64,000 nt of DNA from an archaeon GW2011_AR15 (GTDB lineage: Archaea > Nanobdellota > Nanobdellia > Woesearchaeales > GW2011-AR15). Under the pieces are notes generated by a model. That model was not told where the DNA came from. It did no database searches and saw only the letters and a program-made list of their open reading frames with translations. The translations under genes and the position numbers were made by a program. Of this stretch, positions 3,962 through 37,642 are shown piece by piece (within the stretch, counting starts at the first letter, position 1; every line of letters starts with the position of its first letter). The stretch lies in assembly GCA_000830295.1 (NCBI GenBank), contig CP010425.1, positions 870,884 through 934,883 of the forward strand. Direction: 5' to 3'.

Positions 3962-4519
3962 ATGCATAAGATGCGCAAAGGGTCCTTAGATCTTTCAATT
4001 AATTCAATCGTGGTTCTTATTCTGGCAGTTACCCTGCTTAGCCTGGGCCTGACTTTTATCAACAGGAGCTTTGGCGGAGCAACAGAGCAGCTTGAGAAAT
4101 CCCTACAGGGGATAAGCGAGGACAGGAAGACACAGTTAAGGGAGAAATGTGTTGACGACCTGTGCCTTGAAACAACATCAATAGTCCTGCCAAGAAACAA
4201 GAAAGAGACGATACTTATGGTTCTGAATAACAAGCTTGACTGCGATGTTGATGCTGAGATAGTCATTAATACAAACAACTGCCAGATAATAGGGAATACA
4301 AGGCCAAGTGCCAGCGAGTGCAGCGCAGTTGTTCTGAGCACATTTGAAGAACAGAGAGTAGGCTCAAAACAAAAAGAAATAGTTCCCCTTGAGATAAATC
4401 CTAAAAATAATGCAGAGACTACAACATACAGATATGAAATAGGCGTTGAAGGGTCATGCTCAAGATCGTCAGAAAACAGGATGGCAGGCACAGAATACCT
4501 GGATGTGATTGTTGAATGA
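3962..4519 (+). CDS. Type IV pilin-like exported protein
   Basis: The N-terminus carries a short positively charged leader ending in Lys-Gly (MHKMRKG) directly before a hydrophobic helix (SLDLSINSIVVLILAVTLLS). This is the arrangement of class III signal peptides cut by archaeal prepilin peptidases. The remaining 150 residues are extracytoplasmic, with six cysteines that could pair. A GAGGTTGGTG ribosome binding site precedes the ATG. It is the first gene of a three-gene operon and its stop overlaps the next start as ATGA (4516-4519). A prepilin peptidase is encoded at 19868-20740. It is probably a minor pilin or surface filament component, not an archaellin. Confidence 0.7.
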   Translation: MHKMRKGSLDLSINSIVVLILAVTLLSLGLTFINRSFGGATEQLEKSLQGISEDRKTQLREKCVDDLCLETTSIVLPRNKKETILMVLNNKLDCDVDAEIVINTNNCQIIGNTRPSASECSAVVLSTFEEQRVGSKQKEIVPLEINPKNNAETTTYRYEIGVEGSCSRSSENRMAGTEYLDVIVE

Positions 4520-4740
4520 AAAAAATGAAAAAGCGCCTGACGCAGGCAGAGGAGTTTGACATACTAAAGCTGGTTCTTGACAAGATATTGTGGTTTGGCT
4601 TTGCAGTCATGGGCTATGGGTTCTATCTTTCAGTAGTTTCCCTTGAAATGGCCCGAGGCATGTCATTTGTACTGGGGGGAGCTGTGGTGCTGGTCCTGTT
4701 CATGTTCCTTTTAATCAAGGAATATGAGGTAGTAAAGTGA
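4516..4740 (+). CDS. Small membrane protein, two helices
   Basis: A 74-residue protein translationally coupled to the pilin-like genes on both sides (ATGA overlap upstream, TGATG downstream). A basic, amphipathic N-terminal helix (MKKMKKRLTQAEEFDILKLV) is followed by two hydrophobic segments, about residues 23-43 and 50-68. The position between two pilin-like proteins suggests a role in their assembly or anchoring. No family is recognised, so that role is inference from context only. Confidence 0.65.
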   Translation: MKKMKKRLTQAEEFDILKLVLDKILWFGFAVMGYGFYLSVVSLEMARGMSFVLGGAVVLVLFMFLLIKEYEVVK

Positions 4741-5309
4741 TGGATAAGAAGGGATTTGAGCTCTCAGCGACTTTCCTTGTCGGTCTTATTTTAGGTATAA
4801 TCCTCTTCAGCCTTGGCATGATTTTCGTCTTTAGGCTTCTCGGAGGTGTTGATGACATACAGGTTGCCGGTCTTCCAGGCTATTTTGAAACAGAGGCAGA
4901 AAACTGCGTTGAGAGGAATGAGATGGTCTGCGTGCCGAAAATAAAAGCAGACCTCCAGACCACAAAATCAGAATCTTTCGGAGTGATTGTAAACAATATA
5001 TACGGTTCTGCAAGGAAATTTAAGCTGCACGTAAGGTTCAGGGGAGGCATTACAGAGCAGGGAGAGGAGATAAACTCTGTAGATATAAGCCAATGGACTT
5101 TTACTGATTTCAGTGAGGTTTTTCTTGAAAACAACAACTATAAGATTGTAGAAGTGCCAATGAGGCCTCCAAGAGGCACTCTGCCTGGGGATTATATATT
5201 TAATGTTGATGTCTGCTTCAATGCCAATGACAATCTATCCGGAAAATGCAGTGCAGGCTATCCTTCCCTTTACGGATTGACGCATCAGGTAACAATAACA
5301 GTGATATAA
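4740..5309 (+). CDS. Type IV pilin-like exported protein
   Basis: The ATG at 4740 overlaps the upstream stop by one base (TGATG), a re-initiation arrangement; a GTG one codon earlier is possible but less likely. The leader MDKKG is followed by the hydrophobic helix FELSATFLVGLILGIILFSL, matching a class III signal peptide cut after Lys-Gly. The extracytoplasmic domain of about 150 residues has beta character and four cysteines. The layout matches the first gene of the operon (leader, helix, Cys-containing domain), suggesting two related minor pilins. It ends 3 bp from the convergent lgt stop. Confidence 0.7.
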   Translation: MDKKGFELSATFLVGLILGIILFSLGMIFVFRLLGGVDDIQVAGLPGYFETEAENCVERNEMVCVPKIKADLQTTKSESFGVIVNNIYGSARKFKLHVRFRGGITEQGEEINSVDISQWTFTDFSEVFLENNNYKIVEVPMRPPRGTLPGDYIFNVDVCFNANDNLSGKCSAGYPSLYGLTHQVTITVI

Positions 5310-5312
5310 GGA

Positions 5313-6062
5313 TTATTTCTTCAGCTTGTATAGCTGATAAATGCTTAAACCAAGCAGGCTGATGCTTAGCAGCTGCACGAGGCTTAATCCAAGAACATCT
5401 ACATAAAGCGGAGCCCGGAAGAATTCAGTTATAAGCCTGAGGATGCTGTATCCTGCAATGAAAGACCATATCAGGAAGCCATGCTTTCTTTTTCTTCTGT
5501 TAAGGTAAAGCATCATGCCGAACAGGACCAGCATTGAGAAGGATTCATACAATTGCGCAGGATGCCTGCATACATCATCAATTTTTTGGTAGACAACACA
5601 CCATGGCAGATTTGTTGCTGTGCCTATGTGCTCAGAATTCATAAAATTGGCTATCCTTCCAAAAACCAGTATAAGCGGGAATGGAACAGAAAGGGTATCA
5701 AGGATATGCATCATGCTTACTTTATGCTTTTTGCAGTAGAAATAAACAGCAAGCACACCTCCCAGGATGCCGCCATGAAAAGCCAGCCCACCATTCCATA
5801 TGGCAAATACTCCAAGCAGGTTATTTGCATAAAGAGGAAAGTCAGTAATGACATGCACCAGCCTTGCGCCTATAAGCCCGAACACCAGCATGTAGATGAT
5901 TACGTCAACTGCCTTGTCTTTGTTGAGGTTCTTTATCTTATGTGCGTTCTTAGATAATATATAAGTAAGCAGGATAAAGCCTAAGGCGTAGACTATACCG
6001 TAAAATCTTATTGAGAACGGACCAACAGAAACAAGATCCGGGTTTATATTATTTATGAACAT
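5313..6062 (-). CDS. lgt: Prolipoprotein diacylglyceryl transferase (Lgt homologue)
   Basis: Integral membrane enzyme that in bacteria moves a diacylglyceryl group from phosphatidylglycerol to the lipobox cysteine of prolipoproteins. About seven hydrophobic segments and the Lgt signatures are present: GGLAFHGG with His96, GRIANFMNSE with Arg136 and Asn139, RHPAQLYE at 166-172, and EFFR at 213-216. By motif alignment these match residues important in E. coli Lgt (His103, Arg143, Asn146, Glu243, Arg246). At 249 residues it is slightly shorter than the E. coli protein. It is divergent from a lipobox protein. Lgt is unusual in archaea, where membrane lipids are ether-linked, so the lipid donor is an open question. 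Confidence 0.88.
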   Translation of the reverse strand: MFINNINPDLVSVGPFSIRFYGIVYALGFILLTYILSKNAHKIKNLNKDKAVDVIIYMLVFGLIGARLVHVITDFPLYANNLLGVFAIWNGGLAFHGGILGGVLAVYFYCKKHKVSMMHILDTLSVPFPLILVFGRIANFMNSEHIGTATNLPWCVVYQKIDDVCRHPAQLYESFSMLVLFGMMLYLNRRKRKHGFLIWSFIAGYSILRLITEFFRAPLYVDVLGLSLVQLLSISLLGLSIYQLYKLKK

Positions 6063-6099
6063 TTTTACCTGTGAATCAATCTCAATATTTATATCTTTC

Positions 6100-6204
6100 C
6101 AGGATATGGTATTACTGTCGAGTTACCAAAGTTACCACAATCTTTTTATATTAGCTATTATTCAACAGTTTAACTAGTAGTCATATCTTAAGGGGGAGAA
6201 AACT
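6100..6204 (+). promoter_or_regulatory. Promoter and leader of the Ig-repeat lipoprotein gene
   Basis: The stretch CTTTTTATATTAGC (about 6141-6154) is a good archaeal TATA-like box. The leader ends in TTAAGGGGGAGAAAACT, with a strong GGGGGAG ribosome binding site before ATG 6205. Two GTTACC copies (around 6120-6135) lie just upstream of the TATA box. A proper leader with a strong binding site contrasts with the nearly leaderless starts of most neighbours and suggests high expression. Confidence 0.5.
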
Positions 6205-7395
6205 ATGAATAAAAACGCAATTGTTATGTTAGCACTTGTCATGGTGCTGGTATTAAGTGCATGCACGACATATCAGTATAATGTAAACCAGACAGAAGAA
6301 GCTACAGGAGAAGTAGAGATTAATGAATCCGCAGGCGAAGTCATAGAGACCACGCCGGTAGTTGAAGATACAGGAGAAACAGCTGATATTACAGTAACAG
6401 AAGGCGAGGTAGTAGACCTTAAGCCAGCAGTCTGGGATCCTGACGATGATCTTGTGGAGGTAAGTTTCACAAGTCCATTTGATGCAAACGGCGAATGGGA
6501 AACAGAAGCCGGGGATGCAGGATTCTATTCATCAATTGTAACTGCAACAGATAACAAAGGCTCACTTGTTACTATGCAGGTGACAATAAGGGTTCTCCCA
6601 TTGAACACACCTCCAACCATAGCAGCTCCTGATGTCCAGGAATTCAACGAAGGGGATTTTATAGCACTTGAAGTTGATGCTGTTGACAGAGAGGGAGACG
6701 AGGTTGTAGTTACATATTCCGGCTGGATGAGAGCAAGGAGATACCAGTCAACATTTGATGATGCCGGAGAGCACAAAGTCACAATAAAGGCAGATGACGG
6801 CTTTAACATTGTTACAAAGGAGATTACAGTCATTGTTAAGGATGTCAACAGAAAGCCAGTATTATCCTTTATAGGCCTTGGCGGGGATGACTCAGTCACA
6901 GCCACAGAAGGTGACCTTATTGAGATAACAGTTGAAGCAAGCGACCCAGACGGAGATCCTCTTACAGTAGGCTTCTCACAGCCAATGGACGCAAATGGCA
7001 GATGGCAGACAAAAAGAGGGGACGCCGGAGAATACACTGTTTTAGTAACAGTCAGCGATGGCACAACTGAACTGACAAAGGAAGTCTCAGTTACAGTCCT
7101 TAAGAAAAACGAAGCCCCTGTAATCGAATCATTCACAGTTTCACCAGAGGAAGTCGTGCTTAAGAAACCAGGCGACCAGGTTACAATAAAACTAACCTTG
7201 GTTGCATCTGACTCAGACGGAGACGAGCTTACAGTTACCTACTCAAGTTACATGACCTCAGATGAGAAAACAGTAACCTACGGAGAGAAAGGCGGTGTAA
7301 AGACAGTTACTGTAACAGTCAGTGATGGTGAAGAATCAGACACAGCAGAGCTGAGCTTCAACATGAACAACTGGCCATGCTTTGACTGCCAGTAA
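6205..7395 (+). CDS. Surface lipoprotein with four Ig-like/cadherin-like repeats
   Basis: The N-terminus has a lipoprotein signal peptide ending in the lipobox LSAC, with the cysteine at residue 20. After an acidic linker, four repeats of roughly 80-95 residues follow. Each starts near a D-x-(D/E)-(D/G)-D-x-(L/V)-x-V motif and contains an aromatic or Gly-rich turn and a D-A-G or G-x-K-x-V-T segment, typical of bacterial-type Ig/cadherin-like folds. The C-terminus ends in WPCFDCQ, a CxxC pair. It lies divergent from lgt, which could lipidate it. It is probably a cell-surface structural or adhesive protein; the binding partner is unknown. Confidence 0.75.
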   Translation: MNKNAIVMLALVMVLVLSACTTYQYNVNQTEEATGEVEINESAGEVIETTPVVEDTGETADITVTEGEVVDLKPAVWDPDDDLVEVSFTSPFDANGEWETEAGDAGFYSSIVTATDNKGSLVTMQVTIRVLPLNTPPTIAAPDVQEFNEGDFIALEVDAVDREGDEVVVTYSGWMRARRYQSTFDDAGEHKVTIKADDGFNIVTKEITVIVKDVNRKPVLSFIGLGGDDSVTATEGDLIEITVEASDPDGDPLTVGFSQPMDANGRWQTKRGDAGEYTVLVTVSDGTTELTKEVSVTVLKKNEAPVIESFTVSPEEVVLKKPGDQVTIKLTLVASDSDGDELTVTYSSYMTSDEKTVTYGEKGGVKTVTVTVSDGEESDTAELSFNMNNWPCFDCQ

Positions 7396-7564: not shown

Positions 7565-10066
7565 CTACAATTCGTCCAGCCGCATCTGCTTTGACTTTAT
7601 CAGTCTGTCAACTTCTTCGACTTCATCCCTAAGTATGTCTTTCTCTTTTGTTTTTCTTGATTCTATTATTATCTTCTCTGAAATGTCATCATCCTGCTCC
7701 AGCCTGAATTGTATCTCTCTGCTCCTGCTGATGACCTCTTTAGGCATGCCTGCGAGCTTTGCAACGTGGATGCCGTAGCTCTTGTCGGTTCCTCCCTCAA
7801 TTATCTTTCTCAGGAAGAGTATCTTGTCCTCTTTCTCCTCAACTGCAATGTTGTAATTTTTTACTCCGCTGAGCTCTTTTTCCAGGTTGTTCAGCACATG
7901 GTAATGCGTTGCAAACAGCGTTTTTGCCTTTATTTTCTTTGTTATATATTCAGCGACTGACCACGCAATCGCGACTCCGTCATAAGTGCTTGTTCCTCTC
8001 CCGATTTCATCCAAGAGTATCAGCGATCTTTCTGTTGCGCTGTTTAATATCTGGGCAGTATCGGACATCTCTACCATGAACGTGCTCTGTCCTTTTGAGA
8101 TGTCATCACTGGCACCTGTCCTGAAAAATATCTTGTCAATTATCCCGATTTCAGCGTTTTTTGCGGGCACAAAGCAACCGGCCTGCGCCATTATTATATT
8201 GAGAGCGGCCTGTTTAAGATAAATAGATTTTCCTGCCATGTTGGGACCTGTTATTATCATTGTCCTGTTCTTCTCGCCTATAAGAACATCATTTGCAACA
8301 AAGTCAGTGAGCTGCTCTATGACGGGATGCCTGCTTTCCTCCAGTACCAGCTTATACTCTTCATCGACACTTGGTTTTCTGTAGTTGTTAATTATAGAAA
8401 CTTTGGCAAAAGAGCACAGCATGTCAACATATGCTATTTTTTCAGCAGCATCCTGTATCTTTTTCGTCTCTTTTTTTATCTCTCCCTCTATCTCCCCAAA
8501 CAAGTTCTGTTCCAAAACTATTCTTTTTTCCTCGGATGTAAGGATATCCTCCTCAAGCTTTTTCAGCTCTTCTGTTATAAATCTCTCGCTGCTGACAAGA
8601 GTCTGTTTCTTTATGTAATTATCGGGCACGAGATTCAGGTTTGTTTTTGTAACGTCAATATAATACCCGAAGATTTTGTTGTATCTTATCTTTAGGGATT
8701 TTATGCCTGTGCTTTCCCTCTCTTTGTCTTCAATCTGGCTGATAAGCTTTTTTCCCTCCCGGGAGATTTTCCTGAGCCTGTCAAGCTCTTCATTATATCC
8801 TTCCCTGATGAACCCGCCGTTCAGCGTATTGGCAGGCGCATCATCAGATATGGCCTCATCTATAAGTTCCGCCACATGGCTTAAACTCTCAAATTCTGAA
8901 AGCTTTGAAAGAAGATCTGCATCAGTTTCAGCAAGATATTTTTTTATTTGTGGGATTAATTCAAGAGAACCCTGCAGCGACACAAGATCCCTTGGATTTG
9001 AATTGCCGTAATTTATCCTTGAAATGAGGCGCTCAATATCTGATACATTCTTCAGCAGATCCCTTGTTTCCTCAAGCACAAAGTTCTTTTTTATCAGCTC
9101 TTCCACAGAACTTAGTCTTTGGTTTATCTCCTTTAGGTCCCTTAGAGGCTGAAGCAGGGATTTTTTCAGCAGTCTCAATCCCATTGGTGTAAGAGTCTTA
9201 TCAAGCACTTTCAGCAGTGAAGGCTTCTCTCTGCTGTTTATTATCTCAAGATTATTTGCAGTTGTGCTGTCAAAAGCAAGAAACTCAGAGTCTGAGTAGT
9301 ATTTTAGGGTGTTTATGTGTGATAATGAACTTTTCTGCATATCCTGGAGATAAGAAAGCATTGCTCCTGCAGAGGATACAGCATTTTCTTTTCTCTTGAG
9401 CCCGAAACCATCAAGCGACATAACTCCGAAATGCTTCTTGAGGCAGGCCCTTGCATTATCAAAATAGAACTCAACATCGTTCCTGAACGTCAGATAGAAC
9501 TTTTTCCCCCGGAATTGCTCCTCTGTCCTGCTCCCTTCCATGCTCATGGGAAGTATGACCTCTTTTGGCTCATAGATTACCAGCTCAGCTATTGCCTTTT
9601 CCATACTTTCTGACTCAGTGGCAAAAAACTCTCCTGTAGATGCATCCACAAAAGATAATCCTATTTTCTCGCCCTTGTATATTGAAGCGATAAAATTGTT
9701 TTCCTTGTCAAGCATCTTTTCTTCTATAACTGTTCCTGGGGTAACTACTCTTATGACTCCCCTTTTTACAACGCCTTTTGCATCTTTTGGATTTTCCAGC
9801 TGCTCAACTATTACAACCTTATGACCATGCTTTATCATCTTTGACAGGTAGGAATCAAGCGCGTGATATGGAATTCCGGCCAGAGGGATTGCCTGCGAAT
9901 TCTTCATGCCTCTCCTTGTCAGGGCTATATCAAGGGTCTTTGAGGTTATTTTTGCGTCCTCAAAAAATGTTTCGTAGAAATCGCCCATCCTGAAAAAGAC
10001 GATGCAGTCCTTATACTGCCCCTTTATCTCCATATACTGCTTCATAGCAGGCGTTAATTTTTCCAT
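7565..10066 (-). CDS. mutS: DNA mismatch repair protein MutS
   Basis: ATPase that recognises mismatches and small loops and starts mismatch repair. The N-terminal mismatch-binding domain has the F-x-E motif (GDFYETF, Phe30/Glu32). Connector, lever and clamp regions follow, then the ATPase with Walker A GPNMAGKS near residues 607-614, the helix STFMVEM, Walker B LLDEIGRGTST and the ATHYH switch. At 833 residues it is a full bacterial-type MutS1. MutL is not in this window. MutS1 occurs only patchily in archaea and is usually explained by transfer from bacteria. The gene is divergent from the AbrB-PhoU gene and convergent with the lipoprotein gene. Confidence 0.95.
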   Translation of the reverse strand: MEKLTPAMKQYMEIKGQYKDCIVFFRMGDFYETFFEDAKITSKTLDIALTRRGMKNSQAIPLAGIPYHALDSYLSKMIKHGHKVVIVEQLENPKDAKGVVKRGVIRVVTPGTVIEEKMLDKENNFIASIYKGEKIGLSFVDASTGEFFATESESMEKAIAELVIYEPKEVILPMSMEGSRTEEQFRGKKFYLTFRNDVEFYFDNARACLKKHFGVMSLDGFGLKRKENAVSSAGAMLSYLQDMQKSSLSHINTLKYYSDSEFLAFDSTTANNLEIINSREKPSLLKVLDKTLTPMGLRLLKKSLLQPLRDLKEINQRLSSVEELIKKNFVLEETRDLLKNVSDIERLISRINYGNSNPRDLVSLQGSLELIPQIKKYLAETDADLLSKLSEFESLSHVAELIDEAISDDAPANTLNGGFIREGYNEELDRLRKISREGKKLISQIEDKERESTGIKSLKIRYNKIFGYYIDVTKTNLNLVPDNYIKKQTLVSSERFITEELKKLEEDILTSEEKRIVLEQNLFGEIEGEIKKETKKIQDAAEKIAYVDMLCSFAKVSIINNYRKPSVDEEYKLVLEESRHPVIEQLTDFVANDVLIGEKNRTMIITGPNMAGKSIYLKQAALNIIMAQAGCFVPAKNAEIGIIDKIFFRTGASDDISKGQSTFMVEMSDTAQILNSATERSLILLDEIGRGTSTYDGVAIAWSVAEYITKKIKAKTLFATHYHVLNNLEKELSGVKNYNIAVEEKEDKILFLRKIIEGGTDKSYGIHVAKLAGMPKEVISRSREIQFRLEQDDDISEKIIIESRKTKEKDILRDEVEEVDRLIKSKQMRLDEL

Positions 10067-36778: not shown

Positions 36779-36857
36779 TTTATTTATTACTTAACAGTAG
36801 TTAAAAAATAGAAAGATTTATATAGTTACATCTTCTAATTTATTTCAGGTGATAAAG
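36778..36857 (+). promoter_or_regulatory. Gene-end/promoter repeat before the lipoprotein pair
   Basis: The stretch from the GAPDH-like stop (TAATTTATTTATTACTTAACAGTAGTTAAAAA) nearly repeats the bases after the stop at 35111-35113. TTAAC-AGTA-GTTAA makes a short hairpin. The TATA-like GATTTATATAG follows, and a CAGGTGA site precedes ATG 36858. The shared sequence suggests that the cassettes downstream were copied with their promoter or terminator. Confidence 0.4.
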
Positions 36858-37304
36858 ATGAACCTTACTTCAAGACTAAGAAAAGGCGCTGTTATTACAG
36901 GACTTGTAGCAATAATCGGCGGAACAGTGCTTGGAGCATGCGCTCCAATGCAGCCATACCAGTTTGAAGCTGGTGATAGGGTTCAGGTTATTAATGGCAA
37001 TTTAGCATACGCCCCATTTTCAGAAGGAAACAGATATGACCCGCCCGGAGAGGGCAAGACTATAGGGGAATACGCACAGGTCCCTGATGGTGCAACCTGC
37101 ATGGTAACTGACAGGATGCCATATGCAGGAGAAGGCAATGAATTTGAAAGATGGTATAAATTAGACTGCCGTGAAGAAGTTCCTGAAATCGATTTGGCTG
37201 GTCTTTGCTTTCATCCTATTAAAGGATCTATTAAACCAAGCAATTGCGGCGAAGAGCCGGTTGGATATGCACCTGAAGATAATCTAAGACCAATACAAAA
37301 ATAA
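36858..37304 (+). CDS. Small lipoprotein with SH3-like domain
   Basis: I start at ATG 36858, correctly spaced from a CAGGTGA site; a GTG three codons earlier is possible. The signal peptide (RLRKGAVITGLVAIIGGTVL) ends in the lipobox LGAC. The mature part resembles a bacterial SH3 domain: FEAGDRVQVINGNLAYAP, then IGEYAQVPDGATCMV, WYKLDC and a C-terminal YAPEDNLRP. Four more cysteines could pair. It is followed 11 bp later by a second lipoprotein gene. It may bind surface polymers, but this is a guess from the fold. It would be a substrate for the Lgt homologue. Confidence 0.7.
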   Translation: MNLTSRLRKGAVITGLVAIIGGTVLGACAPMQPYQFEAGDRVQVINGNLAYAPFSEGNRYDPPGEGKTIGEYAQVPDGATCMVTDRMPYAGEGNEFERWYKLDCREEVPEIDLAGLCFHPIKGSIKPSNCGEEPVGYAPEDNLRPIQK

Positions 37305-37315
37305 AAGAGGCAAAA

Positions 37316-37642
37316 ATGACACTAAACGCAAAACTGAAAACTGGCATTTTGGCAGCAGGGCTTGCTGCAACTGTCTTGACAGCATGTAGCGGCCAGGGAG
37401 AGAGAATACTTGAAAGAGAAAGGCAGTCTGGCTTACAGGTTGAAGTCCTTGCTAACAACTATTGTAATGCCCCTCCCAGGCTTCCAGACCAAAACCTATG
37501 GTATTATGAAGTCATTGTGGAAAGAGAGGCAAACGAAAATAATCAGGAGAGATTCTCTGTGATTGCCCTTCAATATGATGGCCGTGATTATTCCTGTACA
37601 GGACCATGGCAGGATATTGGATATTCACCACAAACACCTTAA
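37316..37642 (+). CDS. Small lipoprotein, 108 aa
   Basis: The signal peptide (LNAKLKTGILAAGLAATV) ends in LTAC, a clear lipobox. The mature protein is about 85 residues with beta character (WYYEVIVEREANENNQERFS) and two further cysteines. Its N-terminus is similar in layout to the lipoprotein just upstream, but the mature parts differ. It is co-transcribed (11-bp gap, AAAGAGGC site). Function unknown. Confidence 0.65.
   Translation: MTLNAKLKTGILAAGLAATVLTACSGQGERILERERQSGLQVEVLANNYCNAPPRLPDQNLWYYEVIVEREANENNQERFSVIALQYDGRDYSCTGPWQDIGYSPQTP

Follow-up and report, generated by a model that had tools for sequence, protein, structure and literature searches.

The DNA analyzed here is a 64,000-nt stretch (hereafter, the window) of an archaeal genome that we place, by inference, in the Woesearchaeota-containing order of DPANN. 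Within it, a gene for a prolipoprotein diacylglyceryl transferase (lgt) adjoins a divergently transcribed gene for a putative surface lipoprotein. The signal peptide of the latter reads MNKNAIVMLALVMVLVLSAC and then TT (lipobox LSAC, then TT), and it is followed by Ig/PKD-like repeats. Two more putative lipoprotein genes and a trio of small genes are also found in the window (Table 1). Profile searches matched the products of the frames 36849-37304 and 37316-37642 to no known family, and none of the three small genes had a Pfam match.

Table 1. Features of the window discussed in the text (positions are those of the window)
Feature	Position	Strand	Details
lgt, prolipoprotein diacylglyceryl transferase	5313-6062	-	249 aa, ATG start; basis: PF01790, TIGR00544, residues, fold
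Putative surface lipoprotein, likely substrate	6205-7395	+	396 aa; LSAC lipobox, Cys20; Big_9 / Cadherin_4 / PKD-like
Putative lipoprotein, likely substrate	36858-37304	+	Lipobox VLGAC, then AP; longer frame from GTG 36849, internal ATG 36858
Putative lipoprotein, likely substrate	37316-37642	+	Lipobox VLTAC, then SG
Three small genes	3962-4519, 4516-4740, 4737-5309	+	Located downstream of lgt; in two, the N-terminus bears a hydrophobic stretch resembling that of pilins
MutS1, full bacterial-type	7565-10066	-	Two genes from lgt; TIGR01070 931 bits, cut-off 642

By every sequence test, the window gene encodes an ordinary Lgt. PF01790 covers the whole length of the product (2.5e-65, 220.6 bits versus a cut-off of 24.9), and the equivalog model TIGR00544 scored 159.6 bits, exceeding its cut-off of 118.9. 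E. coli Lgt (5AZB) is the closest PDB entry and the sole PDB relative by sequence, and it is likewise the single significant PDB fold match (TM 0.79, E 2.6e-12) to the AlphaFold model of the window Lgt (pLDDT 82.6). Six residues, Y26, H103, R143, N146, G154, and R239, are absolutely required in the E. coli enzyme (PMC13251419), and alignment shows that all six are present in the window Lgt, as Y21, H96, R136, N139, G147, and R209, respectively. Across 56 aligned archaeal Lgts, the equivalents of R143, N146, and G154 are invariant (56/56), those of Y26 and R239 each show a single gap and are otherwise retained, and that of H103 is conserved in 53. E. coli G145, which is reported to be important, is Ala in the window Lgt, as it is in 24 of 84 aligned bacterial sequences.

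The window Lgt thus has in common with bacterial Lgt (E. coli, 5AZB/5AZC) the fold, the GRxxNFxNxE signature, the essential residues, and the HGG loop, whereas it is only 28% identical to the E. coli protein, shorter, without the head-domain insertion, and carried by an archaeon. In addition, W256 and Y259 of the E. coli phosphatidylglycerol pocket are replaced, both positions being variable among bacteria too. Lgts from monoderms have been reported not to function in E. coli (PMC13251419). While the identity of the gene is shown, the transfer of diacylglyceryl to a lipobox Cys is itself inferred, without biochemical evidence. As a separate observation, the Lgt of a same-family genome (G222; L061:1230-2012) has FFGG instead of FHGG, i.e., Phe at the position equivalent to H103, where some bacteria have Y, W, or F (PMC13251419).

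Lipobox motifs were counted in a 464-kb sample of this genome, comprising the window and 20 further spaced stretches (506 ORFs, 40% of the genome), and the expected number was estimated from how often the same motif ends in a residue other than Cys. A lipobox Cys was found in 15 ORFs versus 1.33 expected, an 11-fold excess (Poisson P 1.6e-11), and by eye 13 of these 15 lipoboxes look classical (e.g., LTAC followed by ST, IGGC by GP, and LAGC by TT). The excess was weak in three other Lgt-positive genomes, with 7 lipoboxes in 808 ORFs and 3.3 expected (5 vs 2.2, 2 vs 0.7, and 0 vs 0.4), and three Lgt-negative relatives yielded 8 in 1219 ORFs, with 4.6 expected. Given this weaker excess elsewhere and the lipoboxes in Lgt-negative genomes, the size of the lipobox cargo appears to vary, and some Lgt-less members may anchor lipoproteins otherwise. 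Elsewhere in the window's genome, three lipobox proteins are encoded within 5 kb (L164:6345-11317, minus strand), an arrangement resembling the tandem pair at 36849-37642.

An earlier note, made from the sequence alone, had described a full Lgt with the key residues H96, R136, N139, E213, and R216, an LSAC lipobox in the neighboring protein, and two more lipoboxes, LGAC at 36858 and LTAC at 37316. All five residues do align with E. coli residues (E213 and R216 with E243 and R246), and the lipobox scan confirmed the three lipoboxes. The residue list, in turn, omitted Y21, G147, and R209, which are present here and essential in E. coli, and it counted E213, whose E. coli counterpart E243 is non-essential for growth (PMC13251419). 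The further claim that Lgt is "paired" with lipobox proteins held only in part; it is true of the genome and not of a conserved gene pair, because the adjacency of lgt and its neighbor is not conserved in relatives. When the 6205-7395 product was compared by tblastn with ~55 related lgt loci, only a repeat-domain match was obtained, in L075, and a conserved pair of lgt and a neighboring lipoprotein gene is therefore unsupported. Lipobox genes near lgt also occur in L062, L063, L066, and L135, but these are few and no test shows that they exceed the genome-wide density.

In the tblastn comparison with related lgt loci, the small-gene trio was found again close to lgt in L061, L082, and L129, and part of it in L063. 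Inspection by eye of L061, L082, and L129 shows lgt and the trio to be separated by a triosephosphate-isomerase-like gene. We regard the trio as context only, since its membership in the pathway has not been shown.

A search of the genome for LspA, for which the earlier note had called, revealed one LspA alongside the one Lgt. It is the sole PF01252 match (119.8 bits versus a cut-off of 25), passes TIGR00077 (103 versus 73.95 bits), and is motif-complete, with SLDQ, NTGISFG (NTGxSFG), GGIIGNLIDR (GGxxGNxxDR), and FNIAD (FNxAD); GNxxDR and FNxAD hold the catalytic Asp. No match to Lnt (TIGR00546) was found in the window's genome, and only 2 of 60 genomes of the order had one over the cut-off. 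The N-terminus would thus not be acylated via the Lnt route. Absence calls in the window's genome, here and below, come from a fast first-look search of a 96.8% complete genome.

We searched 371 genomes drawn evenly from the phylum, 199 from the window's order and 172 from outside it. Lgt was found in 251 of the 371 (199 of the 243 good genomes) and LspA in 243. Both were present in 228 genomes, Lgt only in 23, LspA only in 15, and neither in 105 (odds ratio 69, P 4e-52, uncorrected for relatedness). Within the window's order, Lgt is present in 184 of 199 genomes and LspA in 182, with just 3 lacking both; outside the order, Lgt occurs in 67 of 172. Neither protein was found in any of four archaeal controls (M. 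jannaschii, H. volcanii, S. acidocaldarius, and M. acetivorans), on which the absence of Lgt in other archaeal phyla solely rests. Some of the "absent" calls must be false, since the fast first-look search missed the known B. subtilis lgt among the controls. Collectively, these data show that a complete Lgt-LspA gene set is a standard, near-universal trait of a large archaeal (DPANN) order, with the activity of the pathway remaining an inference. Separately, some members might carry lgt in multiple copies, as six matches were found in G077 and three in G346.

Given that Lgt has been described as bacterial only (PMC13251419) and that the nearest non-archaeal matches are bacterial, lgt and lspA could represent bacterial contamination or a recent, functionless transfer. 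Several observations weigh against this explanation and leave it next to no room. The genome is a single contig of 1,157,690 bases (96.8% complete, 0.67% contaminated), and archaeal genes surround the locus, the window encoding an S-layer protein (PF05124), NOG1, and an A/V-type ATPase catalytic subunit. Moreover, the gene is carried by 184 of 199 genomes of the order, its archaeal gene context is conserved, the essential residues are kept across 56 divergent archaeal copies, and the archaeal Lgts are not nested within any sampled bacterial phylum. Contamination as such is ruled out by the breadth of occurrence, synteny, and the single-contig genome. The earlier claim of an Lgt in an archaeon, which a bacterial contig would have refuted, therefore held, while the view of it as an oddity of one archaeon is corrected by its near-universal presence in the order.

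The phylogeny that the earlier note had also called for was built, and it did not reject a single archaeal group. In the named scan, the best matches included MAGs of Nanoarchaeota and Woesearchaeota, followed at ~30-42% identity by bacteria such as Nitrospirota and Pelagibacterales. In the trees, bacterial Lgts form a few well-supported clusters and archaeal Lgts a broad, deep set that is not nested in one sampled phylum. One archaeal group was not rejected in a quick tree of 100 rows (lnL +17.9 for the constrained tree, p-AU 0.68), nor in a careful tree of 74 rows, where three changes were needed (p-AU 0.18). Bacterial sampling was poor, with no known Patescibacteria and few monoderms, those mostly plasmid copies, and no donor can be named. 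The recurrence of the trio and the triosephosphate-isomerase-like gene at archaeal lgt loci suggests an old residence of lgt in the lineage. In addition, Lgt is encoded by 501 plasmid records, roughly half of them from Enterococcus, and by 29 phage records.

We consider it likely that a working two-step pathway of bacterial type, Lgt then LspA, operates with a scavenged lipid donor in this archaeon and in the majority of its order; activity, step order, and donor source are all inferred. In the proposed pathway, the Lgt substrates would be preprolipoproteins that are exported via Sec and bear a [LVI]-x-[AGS]-C lipobox, Lgt would move diradylglyceryl from a phosphoglycerol lipid to the Cys thiol with release of glycerol phosphate, and LspA would then cleave ahead of the lipid-bearing Cys. 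Both enzymes, lipobox substrates, and the lack of an Lnt match are what the window's genome has in common with the bacterial monoderm-like pathway (Lgt and LspA, no Lnt), from which it differs in belonging to an archaeal cell with an S-layer protein and no bacterial acyl-lipid synthesis genes found. The pathway is at most of this monoderm-like form, as the diderm criterion, N-acylation, is not met. The lipoprotein route of Haloferax is AliA/AliB (PMC12186497). This haloarchaeal pathway, which PMC13251419 and PMC12186497 attribute to Hong et al. 2025 (Nat Commun 16:8411), likewise involves lipobox proteins whose Cys carries a glycerol lipid as the anchor, but AliA/AliB are reportedly not homologous to the bacterial lipoprotein enzymes.

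A second explanation is that the Lgt homologues move diradylglyceryl or glycerol phosphate to or from another acceptor, in lipid or glycan remodeling, and that an unrelated, AliA/AliB-like route handles the lipobox proteins. In its favor, Lgt-negative relatives have lipobox proteins, Haloferax uses AliA/AliB, and there are 23 genomes with Lgt but no detected LspA and 15 with the reverse. Against it stand the tight co-occurrence of Lgt with LspA, the known cleaver of lipid-modified prolipoproteins, the retention of the HGG motif and the GRxxNFxNxE signature, and the strong excess of lipoboxes in the genome analyzed here; the single-enzyme genomes, moreover, may reflect incomplete genomes and tool misses. 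We judge this alternative very unlikely and retain the Lgt-LspA pathway.

The lipid donor of this pathway is a question in itself. The window's genome was searched for core-lipid genes, and no match to G1PDH, GGGPS, CarS, PlsC, or PlsY was found. The sole PF01066 match is a PgsA-like CDP-alcohol phosphatidyltransferase fused to DUF192 and below the pgsA cut-off (L168:9754-10662, minus strand, on the contig near 350 kb), which leaves some head-group synthesis of its own possible. An own supply of ester phosphatidylglycerol, for which we looked to PlsC or PlsY and a PgsA, is not supported, with no PlsC or PlsY and the PgsA-like transferase below cut-off. From the gene absences tested, we infer that the archaeon apparently cannot synthesize membrane lipids itself, whether of archaeal or bacterial type. 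The same absences make a scavenged phosphoglycerol lipid the most likely donor, with ether versus ester linkage untested, and they strengthen the proposal of the earlier note, according to which an active Lgt has to use either an ether lipid or lipids from a host or neighbor. Woesearchaeota subgroup J has been described as lacking GGGPS and DGGGPS and perhaps having no membrane lipid synthesis (PMC8421398).

Among relatives, a convincing GGGPS was found in only ~3 of 371 genomes of the phylum, and in 60 genomes of the order, CarS and PlsC-like acyltransferases were each found in 27. The presence of CarS in these 27 genomes, with GGGPS almost never found, could be explained either by divergence of GGGPS or by import of the precursors that feed the pathway. 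In the order sample, 22 of the 25 genomes that lack CarS and 16 of the 17 that have it retain Lgt, which is therefore not dependent on the CarS ether-lipid step.

In the Lgt reaction, the Cys attacks the glycerol C3-O-phosphate bond held by R143 and R239 (PMC4728403). Since this chemistry itself needs no ester chains, we infer that an archaeol-based donor is chemically plausible; some lipid contacts in the E. coli Lgt structure are made to ester oxygens. A cultured DPANN archaeon selectively recruits the lipids of its archaeal host, which include PG-archaeol (PMC11035636). Cultured DPANN with known hosts live on archaea, and our first guess for the donor is therefore a phosphoglycerol lipid based on archaeol, with ester phosphatidylglycerol not excluded. 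A bolder reading, which we think could as readily prove wrong as right, is that these Lgts use a host-derived, archaeol-type donor with ether chains and mirror-image glycerol phosphate, and would thereby yield diphytanylglyceryl-Cys lipoproteins, replacing AliA/AliB.

The contrary possibility is that the pathway works with ester-linked bacterial phosphatidylglycerol from bacterial partners, and that the membranes are at least partly of bacterial type. This is consistent with the lack of any detected archaeal lipid pathway in the window's genome, with the retention of the catalytic residues by which the E. coli enzyme handles phosphatidylglycerol, and with the PlsC-like acyltransferases of some relatives (27/60). 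However, PlsC and PlsY are missing from the window's genome, CarS in 27 of 60 relatives suggests that some of the order has archaeal lipids, and the DPANN hosts known so far are archaea (PMC8421398). We therefore regard bacterial lipids as an unlikely source and keep the archaeol-based lipid as the first guess.

Lgt has been described as absent from archaea on the basis of a RefSeq search of February 2021 (PMC13251419, 2026). A second paper states that no homologues of bacterial lipoprotein biogenesis proteins have been identified in archaea (PMC12186497, 2025). The genomes searched here contradict the reported lack of Lgt for a large DPANN group. The literature that we searched holds no description of Lgt in DPANN, but it did not cover Hong et al. 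2025, so priority is unsettled; moreover, automatic annotation probably names many such genes, and the sequence fact may thus be on record with its meaning undiscussed.

What is new is that the Lgt-LspA set is standard in a large archaeal order, and that it is found in a member that apparently cannot make membrane lipids. If the enzyme is active, either Lgt accepts archaeal ether lipids of inverted stereochemistry or these cells hold bacterial lipids, and either answer matters for the lipid divide and for the way in which symbionts auxotrophic for lipids build a surface. The list of predicted surface lipoproteins may include the host-contact proteins of these uncultured symbionts, and the lipid on their Cys would record chemically whose membrane lipids the cell uses.
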